From Opitutaceae bacterium (GTDB lineage Bacteria > Verrucomicrobiota > Verrucomicrobiia > Opitutales > Opitutaceae): DNA of 64,000 nucleotides. A program made the translations under genes and the position numbers. Numbering within the stretch: position 1 is the stretch's first letter; every line of letters begins with the position of its first letter. The stretch is from assembly GCA_027482185.1 (NCBI GenBank), contig JAIXWF010000004.1:1-64000 (forward strand), in the 5' to 3' direction. The notes below the pieces were generated by a model, which was not told the origin of the DNA, did not search any database, and saw nothing but the letters and a program-made list of their open reading frames with translations. Below are positions 1 through 45,558 of this stretch, one piece after another.

Positions 1-152
<152 letters not shown>

Positions 153-154
153 CC

Positions 155-679
155 TCAATATTTCAGCGTCATCTCGGCGTCGTTGAGCACGAGGGTCACG
201 GTGCGGCGGCCGATTTCGCGGACGCGGAGGTAAATGGTTTCGCCTTCGACCACGGCGGGCACGACATCGCCCTGTTTGTAGGGCCGCTTGTTGATCACGA
301 GGTGCGAGCGGCCGCCGATTTCGAGCGTGCCGCTGACACGCAGGGTCGCGGCGCCCTGTTGCAGCAACGCGAGGTTGCGCGATTCGCCGTTGGCCGGCTC
401 GGCGGGCGTCTCGGGTTTGTCGGTCTTGGTTTCGGCGGGCGCGGCGACGGGCTGGCCGGCCGGGCGGAACGGACTCGCGCGCGGTTCGGGCGGCGGCGGC
501 GCCTCGTTCCGGTGCTGGTAGAGATCGTTGATCTTGTTCCGCACCTGGCGGAAGCGCGCGTCCATCGTGTTGGCGGCGGCCGGGGCCGCGGGCGCCGCCT
601 TCGCGGCCTTCGGATCGGGTTCGGCGGCGGCGAGGACGCCGGCCAACGCGAAAAACGGCAGGAGGACGCGCGCGTTCAT
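155..679 (-). CDS. PilP/GspC-like pilus assembly protein
   Basis: A 174-residue exported protein and the last gene of a four-gene chain. Residues 1-19 form a signal peptide, residues 20-110 are a low-complexity Ala/Pro-rich linker, and the C-terminal 60 residues form a compact beta-rich segment (GRSHLVINKRPYKQGDVVP...) like the periplasmic HR domain of PilP and GspC. In type IV pilus systems PilP links the inner-membrane PilMNO complex to the PilQ secretin. The start at 679 overlaps the upstream stop as ATGA, which fixes it; longer versions of the frame run antisense-like through the PilO gene. A pilQ gene would be expected next but would lie past the heptamer array and outside the window. 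Assignment rests on position and architecture more than on sequence. Confidence 0.6.
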   Translation of the reverse strand: MNARVLLPFFALAGVLAAAEPDPKAAKAAPAAPAAANTMDARFRQVRNKINDLYQHRNEAPPPPEPRASPFRPAGQPVAAPAETKTDKPETPAEPANGESRNLALLQQGAATLRVSGTLEIGGRSHLVINKRPYKQGDVVPAVVEGETIYLRVREIGRRTVTLVLNDAEMTLKY

Positions 680-4691: not shown

Positions 4692-6059
4692 ATGTCCCAA
4701 GCCCCGACCGCCCGCATCCTCATCGCCGACGACCAACCCGACGTACTCGAGGCCCTGCGGCTCCTGCTCAAGGGCGAGGGCTACGCCACCGAGGCCGTCA
4801 AATCGCCCGCCGCCGTCATCAAGGCTGTCGAAGCCAACGACTACGCGCTCGTCCTCATGGACCTCAACTACGCGCGCGACACCACCAGCGGCCAGGAAGG
4901 CCTCGAGTTGCTGCAAAAACTGCAGGGGCTCGACGCCACGCTGCCGGTGGTCGTCATGACGGCGTGGGCCAGCGTCGACGTCGCCGTCGAAGCCATGCGC
5001 CGCGGCGCCCGCGACTTCGTCACCAAGCCCTGGGATAACCCGCGCCTGCTCGCGATCATCCGCAACCAACTCGAGCTCGGCAGCGCGGTCCGCGCCTACC
5101 GCCGGCTCGAACAGGAAAACGAATTGCTCCGCGGCAGCGGCAAAGCCGGCCCCGCCCTCCTCGCGCAGTCGGCCGCCATGCGCCCCGTGCTCGAGGTCAT
5201 CGCGCGCGTCGGTCCCTCCGACGCCAACATCCTCATCACCGGCGAAAACGGCACCGGCAAGGGCCTCGTCGCCCAGGCCCTCCACGCCGTCTCCCTCCGC
5301 GCCGGCAAACCCTTCATCTCGGTCAACATGGGCGGCCTCCCCGAAGGCGTTTTCGAGAGCGAGCTCTTCGGCCACGTGCGCGGCGCGTTCACCGACGCCA
5401 AAGCCGACCGCGCCGGCCGTTTCGAACTCGCCGACGGCGGCACGCTCTTCCTCGACGAGATCGGCAACATCCCCCTCAGCCAGCAGGCGAAGATGCTGCG
5501 CACGATCGAGACCGGGGAATTCGAGCGCGTCGGCTCCTCGCGCACCTACCGCGCCAGCGTGCGCCTCATCTCCGCGACCAACGCCGACCTCGCGGCCGAA
5601 GTCGCCGCCGGCAAGTTCCGCCAGGACCTGCTCTTCCGCCTCAACACGATCCAGCTCCACCTCCCGCCGCTGCGCGAACGCCGCGAGGACATCGAATTGC
5701 TCGCGCAGCATTTCCTGAAGCAGCACGTCACGCGCTACCGCAAAGGCATCACCGGCTTCGACGAAGGCGCGCTGCAGGCCCTCCGCGATTATTCCTGGCC
5801 GGGCAACGTCCGCGAACTCGACCACTCCGTCGAACGCGGCGTGCTGATGGCCCCGGGCAAAGTGATCCGCGCCCCCGACCTCGGCCTCAACGCCGGCCAG
5901 GCCGTCCCGCGCCTCGAGGAAATGAGCATCGAGGAAGTGGAGGCGTTTTTGATCAAGAAGACCCTCGCCCGCTGCGACGGCAACGCCCGCAAAGCCGCCG
6001 AGGAACTCGGCCTCAGCCGCAGCGCCTTCTACCGCCGGCTGGAAAAGTACGGCCTGTGA
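4692..6059 (+). CDS. Sigma-54-dependent NtrC-family response regulator
   Basis: A 455-residue activator. Receiver domain 8-125 with acidic pair D13/D14, phospho-acceptor D57 (LMDLNY) and K112 (TKPW). AAA+ domain about 155-390: Walker A GENGTGKG at 184-191, sigma-54 contact loop GAFTDA at 231-236 (a common variant of GAFTGA), Walker B LFLDEIG at 252-258. The C-terminal Fis-type helix-turn-helix ends with RSAFYRRLEKYGL. It should drive sigma-54 promoters when phosphorylated by the kinase encoded at 6560. Likely targets in this window are the sites at 4328, 8242 and 25751, which precede its own operon, the exporter operon and the permease array. A four-helix-bundle element separates it from its kinase gene. 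Confidence 0.95.
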   Translation: MSQAPTARILIADDQPDVLEALRLLLKGEGYATEAVKSPAAVIKAVEANDYALVLMDLNYARDTTSGQEGLELLQKLQGLDATLPVVVMTAWASVDVAVEAMRRGARDFVTKPWDNPRLLAIIRNQLELGSAVRAYRRLEQENELLRGSGKAGPALLAQSAAMRPVLEVIARVGPSDANILITGENGTGKGLVAQALHAVSLRAGKPFISVNMGGLPEGVFESELFGHVRGAFTDAKADRAGRFELADGGTLFLDEIGNIPLSQQAKMLRTIETGEFERVGSSRTYRASVRLISATNADLAAEVAAGKFRQDLLFRLNTIQLHLPPLRERREDIELLAQHFLKQHVTRYRKGITGFDEGALQALRDYSWPGNVRELDHSVERGVLMAPGKVIRAPDLGLNAGQAVPRLEEMSIEEVEAFLIKKTLARCDGNARKAAEELGLSRSAFYRRLEKYGL

Positions 6060-6081: not shown

Positions 6082-6550
6082 GCGGTAAGCAAAAAGCTTT
6101 AAGCGCAAAGCTGCCCAAACCTACCGTGCCGCCGTGAAAGATTTTCGGGAGCTCATTGTGTGGCAGCGCAGCCACGCTCTCACCTTGGATCTCTATCGCG
6201 CAACAAAGTCATTTCCGAAGGAGGAAACGTTCGGCCTCACGAGCCAGTTGCGCCGCGCCGCGGCGTCCGTGCCGACCAATATCGCCGAAGGCTGCGGCCG
6301 CGACGGCGACGCCGAGCTCAAACGCTTCCTCAGCATCGCCCTCGGCTCGGCCTGCGAAACCGACTATCTCATTCTGCTTGCCGCGGAGTTGGGTTACCTC
6401 TCGGACAGCGACGCGCCGATGCTGGCCAACGAAGCGCTCGAAATCCGCCGCATGCTCGGCACGTTTGTCCAAAAGCTGAAATCGTAGCCTCCCCGGTTTC
6501 CGCTTCTCCTGCCTCCCGTTGCTTTCCGCTTAACGCTTTCAGCTTACCGC
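6082..6550. mobile_element. Inverted-repeat unit enclosing a four-helix-bundle gene
   Basis: The left arm 6082-6111 and the right arm 6521-6550 are inverted copies of each other over 30 nt with 26 matches; both outer ends read GCGGTAAGC. Inside each arm AAGC recurs every 7 nt (left arm: 6087, 6094, 6101, 6108), so the arms are made of the same kind of heptamer found in other gaps of the window. The only content is the four-helix-bundle gene at 6134-6487. The unit sits between a response-regulator gene and its kinase gene, a place where these operons normally have little sequence. No target-site duplication is obvious. Mobility is inferred, not shown. Confidence 0.6.
6134..6487 (+). CDS. Four-helix-bundle protein (S23/IVS-encoded family)
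   Basis: A 117-residue protein with the family hallmarks: N-terminal KDFRELIVWQRSHALTLDLY, central QLRRAAASVPTNIAEGCGR, then two further helices. It belongs to the four-helix-bundle family (TIGR02436) found in 23S rRNA intervening sequences and related to the Avd accessory protein of diversity-generating retroelements. These proteins are small, basic-patched and oligomeric; molecular function is unsettled, with nucleic-acid binding the usual proposal. The start is GTG 6134, which fits the family N-terminus. The gene is enclosed by 30-bp heptamer-built inverted repeats and lies between a regulator gene and its kinase gene, so its link to those genes is probably insertional rather than functional. 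Confidence 0.93.
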   Translation: MKDFRELIVWQRSHALTLDLYRATKSFPKEETFGLTSQLRRAAASVPTNIAEGCGRDGDAELKRFLSIALGSACETDYLILLAAELGYLSDSDAPMLANEALEIRRMLGTFVQKLKS

Positions 6551-6559
6551 CCCGCCCTC

Positions 6560-7906
6560 ATGGCGAAGCCATCCCGCCGCCTCTCCCTCGAGCAGAACGT
6601 CGCCCTCTACGCGCTGCTCGGCGGGCTGCCCGCGGTCGTCACCGCCCTCTGCTTCCTCTGGCTCGGCGACCGGCCGCCCAAGGAACAGTGGACCCTTACG
6701 CTGCTCATCGCCGGCTGCTGGTTCGGTTTCGCCCTCGCCGCGCAGAACCTCGTCATCCGCCCGCTCCACACGATGGCCAACCTCCTCTCCGCGCTGCGCG
6801 AGGGCGACTTCGCCGTCCGCGCCCGCGGTGCCCGCCGCGACGAAGCCCTCGGCGATGTCCTCGCCGAAATCAACACCCTCAGCCGCACCCTTCAGGACCA
6901 ACGCCTCAGCGCCCTCGAAGCCACCGCCCTCCTCCGCACCGTCATGGAGGAAATCAACATCGCCATCTTCGCCTTCGACAGCGAACGGAAGCTCCGCCTC
7001 GCCAACCACGCCGGCCAACTCCTCCTCGGCAAACCCGCCGAACGCATCCTCGGCCGCGACGCCGCCGAGATCGGTCTTGCCGAATGTCTCGAGGGTCCCG
7101 CCGGCCGTCTCCTCAACCTCTCTTTTCCCGGCGGCGCCGGCCGCTGGGGCATGCGCCGCAGCGAATTCCGCGAGGGCGGCCGCCCCCACCAACTCGTCGT
7201 CATCGCCGACCTCAGCCGCACCCTGCGCGAGGAGGAACTGCAAGCCTGGCAACGCCTCGTCCGCGTCCTCGGCCACGAACTCAACAACTCCCTCGCCCCC
7301 ATCAAGTCCATCGCCGGCAGCCTCGGCTCCCTCCTGCGGAACCCCCGCCGCGCCCCGGATTGGGAAGAGGACATGCGCGGCGGCCTCGACATCATCGCCT
7401 CCCGCGCCGAAAGCCTCGGCCGTTTCATGCAGGCCTACGCCCGCCTCGCCCGCCTGCCCCAACCCGCCCTCGCCCCCTGCGAGTTTCACGCCCTCGTCCA
7501 CCGCGTCGTCGCGCTCGAACGCCGCCTCCCCGTCCGCGTCCTTGGCGGCCCCAACCTCGTCTTCCCCTGCGACGCCGCCCAGATCGAACAGGTCCTCATC
7601 AACCTCGTCAAAAACGCCGTCGAAGCCGCCCTCGAACAACAGGCCAACGGCCGCGCCGACGCCGGCGTCCGCGTCGCCTGGAAGAAAAACGGCGCCCACC
7701 TCGACATCCTCGTCGAGGACGACGGCCCCGGCATCGCCCAGGCCACGAACCTCTTCGTCCCCTTCTTCACCACCAAGCCCGAAGGCTCCGGCATCGGCCT
7801 CGTCCTCTGCCGCCAAATCGCCGAAAATCACGGCGGCGCCCTAACCTTGGCGAATCGCGAAAACGCCCCCGGCTGCGTCGCGACCTTGCGCCTGCCGGCT
7901 CCTTGA
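6560..7906 (+). CDS. NtrY/NtrB-like sensor histidine kinase
   Basis: A 448-residue membrane kinase, the probable partner of the regulator at 4692. Two membrane helices at about 14-35 and 47-66 bracket a very short loop, so it likely senses the membrane or cytoplasm rather than a periplasmic ligand. A HAMP-like segment follows (66-118), then a PAS domain (about 122-220). The phospho-acceptor is H239 in RVLGHELNNS, an H-box typical of NtrB/NtrY-type kinases. The ATPase domain carries the N-box NLVKNAVEA, G1 EDDGPGI and G2 GSGIGL. ATG 6560 follows the right arm of the inverted-repeat unit by 9 nt. The stop codon lies in the loop of a perfect 14-bp hairpin. Confidence 0.93.
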   Translation: MAKPSRRLSLEQNVALYALLGGLPAVVTALCFLWLGDRPPKEQWTLTLLIAGCWFGFALAAQNLVIRPLHTMANLLSALREGDFAVRARGARRDEALGDVLAEINTLSRTLQDQRLSALEATALLRTVMEEINIAIFAFDSERKLRLANHAGQLLLGKPAERILGRDAAEIGLAECLEGPAGRLLNLSFPGGAGRWGMRRSEFREGGRPHQLVVIADLSRTLREEELQAWQRLVRVLGHELNNSLAPIKSIAGSLGSLLRNPRRAPDWEEDMRGGLDIIASRAESLGRFMQAYARLARLPQPALAPCEFHALVHRVVALERRLPVRVLGGPNLVFPCDAAQIEQVLINLVKNAVEAALEQQANGRADAGVRVAWKKNGAHLDILVEDDGPGIAQATNLFVPFFTTKPEGSGIGLVLCRQIAENHGGALTLANRENAPGCVATLRLPAP

Positions 7907-7919
7907 GCCGGCAGGCGCA
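7887..7919 (+). terminator. Hairpin straddling the kinase stop codon
   Basis: A perfect 14-bp stem (7887-7900 with 7906-7919) and a 5-nt loop CCTTG; the kinase TGA is at 7904-7906. The stem is GC-rich and very stable, but no T-run follows, because a GTTGAGA heptamer array begins at once. It may stop transcription, protect a 3' end, or be another product of the local repeats. Confidence 0.55.
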
Positions 7920-8112
7920 GTTGAGAGTTGAGAGTTGAAAGTTGAGAGATCGATCCGTTGCGAAATCCGCGCCCCGATCCCCAATTTCCAATCTCCCCCT
8001 TAAGACCCCCGGTCTCTGCAGTCCGGTCTCCGGTTTTCGGTCTCCGGTTTCGGAAAATCCACATTCCGCAATTCCCCGTCTCCGGTCTCCGGTTTCCGAA
8101 TTCCGGTCTTCA
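7920..8112. repeat. Two heptamer arrays (GTTGAGA and GTTTCCG types)
   Basis: This gap of over 300 nt holds no gene. GTTGAGA-type units repeat four times at 7920-7947. A second family with words such as GGTCTCC, GGTTTTC, GTCTCCG and AATTCCG runs in strict 7-nt steps at 8011-8059 and 8078-8112. The second family recurs at 42933-42974, 43716-43743, 45491-45530 and 55743-55777, and inverted at 47846-47894. Between the array and the sigma-54 site, 8113-8241 shows nothing recognisable. Confidence 0.85.
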
Positions 8113-28350: not shown

Positions 28351-28456
28351 AACAGGTAGCGAGTAGTGAGTAGCGAGGAGCGACCATCCCAAACTCCCGG
28401 ATCCAATCCGCCGCCTACTCGCTAGCCACTACCCGCTACTCGCTACTTCTTCCCCC
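28351..28456. repeat. Heptamer inverted-repeat spacer (GTAGCGA type), copy 1
   Basis: The element begins right after a permease TGA and ends at the ATG of the next. The left arm has four units GTAGCGA/GTAGTGA/GTAGCGA/GGAGCGA (28356-28383); the right arm has five complementary CTACTCG-type units (28415-28449). The stretch between the arms is about 31 nt, so the mRNA can form a long imperfect hairpin that ends a few nt before the start codon. The copy at 30881-30986 differs at two positions. Confidence 0.95.
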
Positions 28457-30880: not shown

Positions 30881-30986
30881 AACAGGTAGCGAGTAGTGAG
30901 TAGCGAGGAGCGACCATCCCAAATTCCCGGATCCAATCCGCCGCCTACTCGCTAGCCACTACCCGCTACTCGCTACTTCTCCCCCC
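30881..30986. repeat. Heptamer inverted-repeat spacer (GTAGCGA type), copy 2
   Basis: By direct comparison with 28351-28456 it matches at 104 of 106 positions, with the same length and the same position between stop and start codons. The coding regions on either side are far more diverged. This means a recent copy event or gene conversion limited to the spacer and a few flanking codons. Confidence 0.95.
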
Positions 30987-37521: not shown

Positions 37522-37630
37522 AACGGGTAGCGAGTAGCGGGGAGCGAGCATCCCAATCTTCCGAATCCCCTTCGCCGCCTCCCGCCGCCTACTCGCTGCC
37601 CACTACCCGCTACTCGCTACTTCCGCTCCC
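37522..37630. repeat. Heptamer inverted-repeat spacer (GTAGCGA type), diverged copy
   Basis: The left arm has three GTAGCGA-type units (37527-37547) and the right arm five CTACTCG-type units (37589-37623). The middle (37548-37588) is longer than and different from that of the two near-identical copies at 28351 and 30881. As there, the element fills the space between a permease stop and the next permease start. Confidence 0.9.
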
Positions 37631-42710: not shown

Positions 42711-42774
42711 GTCCGCATCGCCGCAAATTCCCCCCGCGCGCGCAAGCGCGGCGGCGCGGCGCGGGGCGCCGCGC

Positions 42775-42974
42775 GGTTCGGGGTGCGGGGTGCGGAGTTG
42801 CGCCGTTGGGAATTCGGTTTGGTTTTGGGTTTTGCGTTTTGGGTTCTGGGTCGAGGTCGCGTTCAGCTCTCAGCTCTCAGCTCTCAGCTCTCGGCTGTCG
42901 GCTTTCTTCCTTCTTCTTTCCCCCATTTCTTCTTTTCCGTTCTCCGGTTTCCGGTCTCCGCAGTCCGGTCTTGG
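42775..42974. repeat. Mosaic of four heptamer families
   Basis: This gap of 304 nt between divergent genes holds no gene. In order: GGTGCGG-type units (42775-42802), GGTTTTG-type units (42814-42848), TCAGCTC units, four of them identical, grading to TCGGCTT (42863-42904), and GTTTCCG-type units (42933-42974). Each block keeps a strict 7-nt step, and the blocks match families found singly elsewhere in the window. A GC-rich imperfect palindrome precedes them at 42745-42772. Confidence 0.9.
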
Positions 42975-45275: not shown

Positions 45276-45558
45276 GGTTCCGGGTTTTGCGTTTTTGGGT
45301 TTTGGGTTCGGCGGGGACGGAAGCAGAACGCGAATTCGAAGTTTGGGGTTCGGAGTTCGGAGTTTGGAGTTTGGAGTTCGGAGCCGACGGGCGGTGCGCC
45401 GGCGAATCCGCCTTCCTCCGTTTCCCGCTTTTCCAATTTTCCTCTTTCCCGATTTTCTGCGTCCCGGCCTTTCTTCCTTCTTCTTCTCCCGTTTCTCCTT
45501 TTCCGATTCTCCGGTTTCCGGTTTCCGCACCCTCCGTGTCCTCCGTGCCTCTGTGGTT
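45276..45558. repeat. Repeat mosaic: 7-, 8- and 9-nt periods
   Basis: This 486-nt gap between convergent genes has no coding sequence. GGTTTTG-type heptamers cover 45276-45311 and AGTTTGG/AGTTCGG heptamers 45340-45384. Five exact octamers (TTTCCCGC, TTTTCCAA, TTTTCCTC, TTTCCCGA, TTTTCTGC) cover 45421-45460. GGTTTCC-type heptamers cover 45491-45530, and three 9-nt units of the CCTCCGTGT type cover 45530-45558. The octamers recur at 63309-63348, where TTTTCCAA and TTTCCCGC are reused exactly. Confidence 0.88.

Follow-up and report, generated by a model that had tools for sequence, protein, structure and literature searches.

A four-helix-bundle gene between inverted heptamer arrays in an Opitutaceae genome: probable copy of a widespread selfish element

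In REP (repetitive extragenic palindromic)/REPIN systems, a RAYT driver gene with a Y1 HUH transposase is flanked by dispersed inverted short repeats that are single palindromes. The element described here occupies positions 6082-6550 of a 64,000-nt stretch of an Opitutaceae bacterium genome (contig JAIXWF010000004.1; this whole stretch is hereafter the window) and consists of a gene for a four-helix-bundle protein of family PF05635 enclosed by two inverted arrays of 7-nt units. Like a RAYT gene, this driver gene is flanked by, and often co-occurs with, dispersed inverted short repeats; unlike in REP systems, these are arrays of 7-nt units instead of single palindromes, and the four-helix protein has no Y1 HUH transposase domain. 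We infer, with a probability of about 0.72, that 6082-6550 is a copy of a widespread selfish element, REP/RAYT-like in logic, whose pentameric protein would recognize its heptamer ends. This reading builds on the observed architecture of the locus, its generality, the coupling of unit motif and protein, a genome in which three sites carry near-identical copies, derivatives that lack the gene, and filled and empty sites.

A second system close to this locus is the 23S rRNA intervening sequence (IVS). In Coxiella this sequence is 428-444 nt long, its termini pair into a stem of 28 bp, and RNase III cleaves it in vitro (PMC4990558). The window element shares with such sequences an open reading frame (ORF) of the intervening-sequence protein (IVP, or S23p) family, complementary termini (26 of 30 positions) and a similar length (469 nt). 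It differs in lying between a response-regulator gene and a histidine kinase gene and not in a helix of an rRNA gene, in having ends made of tandem 7-nt units, and in having dispersed gene-less derivatives. By location, the window element is not an rRNA IVS, while in the other features tested it agrees with one.

The preliminary description of this locus had related the protein to Avd of diversity-generating retroelements. That relation is stated for the PF05635 family in PMC10053308 and is supported by a structure comparison in which the Avd fold was found; the window gene differs from Avd in having no adjoining reverse transcriptase, and none was detected in its own genome. Heptamer repeats are themselves familiar: G-rich ones occur in Xanthomonas and Nostoc (PMC4692102) and TAACTGA repeats in Beggiatoaceae (PMC4679880). 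They resemble the present arrays in being heptameric and, in Xanthomonas, in forming convergent pairs: GGGAATC arrays, a heptamer studied for G-quadruplexes (PMC4692102), make 70 and 75 such pairs in two genomes. We found Xcc0516-type genes of the PF05635 family between GGGAATC-like arrays in five Xanthomonas species (L142-L146). The main texts of PMC4692102 and PMC4679880 contain none of the terms 'S23', 'four helix' and 'helix bundle', and no link of the repeats to this family was found in them; nor did open-licence full text yield a published link between PF05635 and heptamer arrays, one that subscription papers and preprints could hold. No mention of heptamer arrays was found in four papers that refer to the family by accession, by name or through Xcc0516.

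The window element and its regulator-kinase junction

The element and its neighbours, in window coordinates, are as follows.
6082-6111, + strand: left arm, an array of 7-nt units with an AAGC core and three variable bases, four cores (from the inverted-repeat search, shuffles and control ORFs)
6134-6487, + strand: four-helix-bundle gene (PF05635 / TIGR02436, 23S rRNA IVP or S23p family), GTG start, 117 amino acids
6521-6550, - strand: right arm, 7-nt units as in the left arm, inverted array (from the inverted-repeat search)
4692-6059: sigma-54 response regulator gene, left neighbour of the element
6560-7906: histidine kinase gene, right neighbour of the element

The arms are 30 nt each, lie 409 nt apart and match in inverted orientation at 26 of 30 positions (87% complementary). 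In a common orientation they read GCGGTAAGCAAAAAGCTTTAAGCGCAAAGC and GCGGTAAGCTGAAAGCGTTAAGCGGAAAGC, each with four AAGC cores at a spacing of 7 nt. Local inverted alignment of the flanks (220 nt on each side) gave a score of 22, which none of 5000 first-order Markov shuffles reached (maximum 19); a score of 20 or more was seen in none of 204 control ORFs of related genomes. The inverted arms and the AAGC recurring every 7 nt, both claimed in the preliminary description, were thus confirmed. Its assignment of the enclosed gene also held, as the ORF at 6134-6487 scored 130.1 bits against PF05635 (cut-off 33.8) and 130.9 against TIGR02436 (cut-off 24). The PF05635 match spans 6146-6460 and is the only one that the profile search found in the window. 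The position between a response-regulator gene and its kinase gene was borne out by the ORF list and profile matches.

The preliminary description had pointed to regulator-kinase loci of relatives as the place to look for an empty site. Among 41 genomes searched (own genome included), 19 regulator orthologues were found, and their junctions were sorted by eye. Six were empty, 12 were occupied and one was cut by the contig end; the occupied junctions held a four-helix element (5), a PDDEXK_3-type gene or remnant (4; family PF13366 was confirmed for two of these) or arrays only (3). The content of the junction is therefore not constant, which marks the window copy as an insertion or its survivor. 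Across species the units at this junction vary, yet within a copy the arms resemble each other: arm scores averaged 17.5 within a copy and 9.9 between copies (six loci). The within-copy figure is inflated, as each arm had been delimited from the best alignment of its own locus. The earlier view of the unit as an insertion with its own ends is supported by these empty and filled junctions, together with the general occurrence of inverted flanks, the motif-protein coupling and the dispersed gene-less pairs reported below. The element probably contributes nothing to the signalling of the adjoining regulator and kinase. As a separate observation, L306 and L323 on the one hand and L320 on the other occupy one site in one genus with different four-helix lineages and different units.

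Array-framed PF05635 genes in other genomes

Within the phylum of the window organism, 57 genomes (own genome included) were searched, 35 of which had a match, and 145 genomes were searched with the Pfam model, 100 of which had a match. The first search supplied 72 loci, covering its rows to E 1.1e-9 except for a partial match in G016 and a match at a contig end in G043, with weaker rows excluded; the second supplied 27 non-duplicates among its best 30. Of these, 98 with sufficient flank were scored; three duplicates and one short-flank locus had been dropped before counting. These loci are in part orthologous sites and hence in part non-independent. Outside the phylum, named genome contigs were scanned with part of Xcc0516, giving at least 571 confirmed stretches, of which the best 80 were kept; to these we added nine of 30 plasmid records (six from cyanobacteria), and one short-flank locus was dropped. 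By their titles, these best 80 matches fall in Proteobacteria, Bacteroidota, Nitrospirota, Planctomycetes, Acidobacteria, Firmicutes, Chloroflexota, candidate phyla and one ANME-1 archaeon, the phylum names having been assigned by us to the genera.

The left and right 220 nt of each locus were compared for inverted similarity with a threshold score of 16. In the phylum, 83 of 98 PF05635 loci reached it; among control ORFs 3 of 204 did so, among mispaired flanks 18 of 291, and in direct orientation 5 of the 98 loci. In other phyla and plasmids it was reached by 71 of 88 loci, compared with 8 of 361 control positions taken within those loci; mispaired flanks reached it in 19 of 435 cases. The comparison of PF05635 genes with controls that the preliminary description had proposed thus came out in favour of inverted flanks, both inside and outside the phylum. 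In the own genome, the Pfam model gave seven PF05635 matches, one of them under the cut-off, and all seven have inverted flanks scoring at least 19. They include four weaker matches (L327-L330), whose flanking inverted repeats are built of other unit types.

Lag-7 repetition in both flanks (at least 16 of 21 positions) was found in 45 of 98 loci and 3 of 204 controls, and lag-8 repetition in 9 of 98 and none of 204. No locus of the 98 showed repetition at lags 5, 6, 9, 10 or 11 in both flanks (lag 6: one of 204 controls). The best unit period among 97 phylum loci was 7 in 77, 8 in 17, 6 in two and 9 in one. Accordingly, the 7-nt unit claimed at the outset stands for most loci, and a minority has units of 8 nt.

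Several loci are of interest for their neighbours. On cyanobacterial plasmids, four-helix genes lie between cas6 and cas4 (L222), between two ribonucleotide reductase subunit genes (L226) and between cas10 and cmr3 (L227). L037, from the phylum of the window, and L207, from a contig named Spirochaetaceae, have near-identical arms at the same position of a methylase gene, a likeness which suggests transfer of a whole gene together with its element.

Array design was analysed in 168 elements with a score of at least 14 and a period strength of at least 0.5. The G-rich strand points inward: G exceeded C in 160 left arms, compared with five showing the opposite. In the 140 elements with 7-nt units, sorted per-position conservation averaged 0.98, 0.96, 0.92, 0.86, 0.76, 0.67 and 0.55. 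The 7-nt unit is thus a constant core with two to three freer positions, a design that the window arms, with their four cores, fit. Perfect stems of at least 8 adjoined the outer edge of the array at 13 of 336 arm edges and at none of 1656 control positions. A hairpin at the insertion point as the target was considered and kept as an observation only, since 13 of 336 edges is a minority and some of these rows are orthologous.

Heptamer microsatellites could be common between genes, arising by chance or slippage, with the gene merely nearby, and the window itself contains many heptamer arrays (25 at lag 7). We consider this scarcely credible, as inverted, locus-specific pairing lies far above the mispaired, direct and control comparisons and the polarity is one-sided. 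Those comparisons rule out chance and microsatellite slippage.

Coupling of array and protein was measured in 97 loci (L090 and L094 excluded) over 4499 locus pairs not flagged as the same site; the filter relied on blastn, which diverged orthologues may escape. Arrays were alike (Smith-Waterman score of at least 14) in 23 of 24 pairs (96%) at different sites with protein identity of at least 70%. The proportion was 37% of 161 pairs at 55-70% identity, 8% of 524 pairs at 45-55% and 4-5% at 25-45%. Protein and array similarity were correlated with a Mantel r of 0.33, reached in none of 2000 permutations. On these alignments, the unit motif follows protein similarity at different sites.

A second gene family is framed in a comparable way. 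PDDEXK_3 genes in genomes of the same family (L231-L260), which we take to be of the GxxExxY type, had inverted flanks scoring at least 16 in 27 of 30 loci, compared with 43 of 288 mispaired flanks; this higher mispaired rate may arise, we think, because units are alike between loci. Judged by eye, their arrays mostly have three units of 9-10 nt, for example CACGGAG, as is also seen at junction loci L128 and L134.

Copies, gene-less doublets and insertions inside genes

Genome G043 carries three copies at different sites with 8-nt units and protein identities of 88-95%, one of them having lost part of the gene. Alignment of these copies extends as far as the array edges on both sides, with unrelated sequence beyond. 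The copies also bear on the idea of a retroelement, in which a reverse transcriptase supplied in trans would work with the protein as one does with Avd in diversity-generating retroelements. We regard this as very unlikely: no RVT_1 match was found in the own genome or in the gene-bearing genomes G017, G027, G029, G031, G034, G043 and G056. G043 thus lacks a match despite its near-identical copies, even if divergent reverse transcriptases or assembly gaps could hide one. Reverse-transcriptase dependence was set aside as unsupported by these eight genomes.

In the own genome (G000), a pattern of four AAGC units gave 58 matches, which form 36 arrays. Array pairs within 500 nt were convergent in seven cases and divergent in none; all but one of the seven leave too little room for the four-helix gene. 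The GTAG pattern in three other genomes gave at least 18 convergent pairs and no divergent ones among the matches listed, with the pair at L010 enclosing a gene. Overall, the matches listed contain 25 convergent and no divergent pairs; two enclose a gene (the window element and L010) and 23 are gene-less. GTAG arrays were present in all eight genomes with a GTAG-type four-helix gene, as split by reading of the arms, compared with 11 of 49 others (Fisher p 4.6e-5). When the borderline genomes G007 and G009, which have mainly GGAG units, were counted as GTAG-type, the figures became 8 of 10 and 11 of 47 (p 0.0013). Arrays at lag 7 numbered 15 per 400 kb in genomes with the gene and 2 in genomes without it, an underpowered comparison in which GC content differs and both exceptions lie in G030.

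Three gene-less doublets of another unit type lie in the window itself, none with a strand assigned.
28353-28449: gene-less convergent doublet, GTAGCGA unit type; left array 28353-28388, right array 28419-28449
30883-30979: second gene-less GTAGCGA doublet, near-identical to 28353-28449
37525-37624: third gene-less GTAGCGA doublet, with its left array placed by eye at about 37525-37550 and its right array at 37592-37624

Other arrays were noted in passing. A long CGCTGAC heptamer array stands at the start of the window (1-158), and a perfect hairpin across the stop codon of the kinase gene is immediately followed by an AGTTGAG-type heptamer array without a gene (7890-7952). Clusters of several heptamer unit types lie at 42766-42961 and 45281-45387, with no four-helix gene there. 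Locus L299 combines three unit types (AAGC, GAACTCC and CACTGATG) in nested or adjoining arrays.

Gene-less inverted doublets that match the flanks of the driver gene and are dispersed in its own genome (six short AAGC convergent pairs) recall REP doublets. In this respect, the RAYT-like role proposed in the preliminary description has support. For the protein, the comparison with RAYT is an analogy only, since no HUH transposase domain was found in it and its contact with the arrays is a proposal.

The doublets also raise the question of which came first. The arrays themselves might be the mobile unit, with the PF05635 gene, like PDDEXK_3, a homing passenger that enters pre-existing doublets. 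Gene-less doublets indeed outnumber gene-bearing ones (23 of the 25 pairs counted), different genes occupy array-bounded units at the one regulator-kinase junction, and orthologous sites in one genus hold different PF05635 lineages and units (L306/L323 and L320). Yet similar genes retain a similar unit motif at different sites, the three G043 copies have gene and arrays as one block, and the array design of PDDEXK_3 differs by eye, with its three units of 9-10 nt. We therefore consider an array-first origin unlikely.

Some elements lie inside other genes. In L007, L033, L035 and L037, the element lies in a pglX-like gene whose frame stays open along the two arrays and the entire four-helix gene, the latter being read in another frame. 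Pfam scans of three of these loci found Eco57I or N6 methylase domains in L007 and L037 but not in L033; the label pglX-like is given to L033 and L035 by resemblance. Where BrxX (9ewz) has 8 residues, between positions 294 and 303, the L007 product has 140, and the two align on both sides of this stretch. L060 (Mfd-like) and L209 (PF01555 methylase) likewise keep an open host frame across the element. Such a frame was found in 7 of 164 elements in total; in six (L007, L033, L035, L037, L060 and L209) it also takes in 120 nt on each side. Gene-less doublets, judged by eye, are in frame too in L209, L033 and L007. The copies in pglX-like genes leave the host frame open, so that no splicing is needed, and intron-like splicing was set aside for them. 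Rickettsia palindromic elements, about 150 bp long with a short peptide ORF, also insert in frame into protein genes (PMC10969869), as do six elements here. No mention of a whole gene in another frame, as is present here, was found in the description of them in that paper.

The open host frames are relevant to a further explanation, in which the arms form a long transcript stem that RNase III cuts and to which the protein binds, regulating its own or a neighbouring mRNA, making the unit a regulatory insertion that does not move. rRNA IVSs, which encode the same protein family, provide a precedent in the Coxiella stem and its cleavage (PMC4990558), and some copies lie between neighbour genes of one pathway (the ribonucleotide reductase subunits, cas10/cmr3 and cas6/cas4 cases). 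On its own, such a module leaves unexplained the near-identical copies at three sites, the dispersed gene-less doublets and the host frame open across the element, and we judge it improbable.

Proposed mechanism and its implications

Xcc0516 has been described as homopentameric (PMC4990558), and the structure entries 2gsc and 2rld contain five chains each. By homology to Xcc0516, the window protein is predicted to be a homopentamer as well. In our proposal, the pentameric ring would bind the arrays, perhaps with one unit per subunit, the array being held as an extruded single strand or as RNA. The bound ring would bring both ends of the element together, and host replication or repair might then copy the hairpin-ended unit to new sites, with gene-less doublets copied in trans. 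In the anatomy set, arm length had a median of 5.0 units, and of 336 arms, 134 rounded to 5, 60 to 4 and 62 to 6.

A number of points weigh against the selfish-element reading. Binding of the arrays and movement of the element are both inferred. The five-unit mode depends on the array-extension rule and on the filtered set, and the window arms have four cores. PF05635 was the sole domain that the Pfam scan found in the window protein, with no catalytic domain; the chemistry would therefore have to come from the host, for which no partner is known. In all, 15 of 98 phylum loci and 17 of 88 outside loci fell under the flank threshold. The gaps at the regulator-kinase junction are too diverged for target-site duplications to be read.

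The genome-wide patterns add further difficulties. As a control, the AAGC pattern read backwards gave 83 and 25 matches in G000, compared with 25 and 33 forward, and 52 and 37 in G006; we think that these matches may be CGAA-type arrays of another copy (L003, L299), which is unproven. GTAG arrays occur in 11 of 49 genomes in which no GTAG-type gene was detected. Among them, G000 has 33 GTAG matches and none of its seven PF05635 copies is GTAG-type, G013 has 62 and no GTAG-type gene was seen in the two of its three PF05635 matches that were read, and G030 has 24 with no PF05635 match by the Pfam model. G006 has 132 AAGC matches, and the three of its four PF05635 matches that were read have other units. 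Conversely, G007 and G009 have genes near the GTAG type and no GTAG arrays.

The framing of relatives in many bacterial groups suggests that the window element represents a widespread, overlooked kind of selfish DNA. We extend this tentatively, at slightly less than even odds, to the family as a whole: PF05635 genes of bacteria and at least one archaeal contig may drive a new class of mobile element that encodes neither a transposase nor a nuclease nor a reverse transcriptase, and at each inverted end every subunit of the pentameric ring would read one 7-nt unit. The heptamer tandem repeats long familiar from cyanobacteria, Xanthomonas and others would then for the most part be ends or remains of such elements, rRNA IVSs would be copies that landed in rRNA genes, and some copies would sit in frame in genes for housekeeping or defence without closing the host frame.

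Three separate puzzles are joined in this way, namely a four-helix protein of unknown function, the rRNA intervening sequences and the abundant heptamer repeats of bacteria, and each receives a testable role: the protein as repeat reader, the repeats as element ends and the insertions in rRNA as a subset. The copies that lie in frame in BrxX-, Mfd- and methylase-like genes point to a possible route by which selfish DNA enters coding sequence and adds long protein stretches. If movement is true, a small protein without a known catalytic domain would drive a mobile element by a new mechanism, and many of the puzzling seven-letter repeats in bacterial genomes would have a possible origin.
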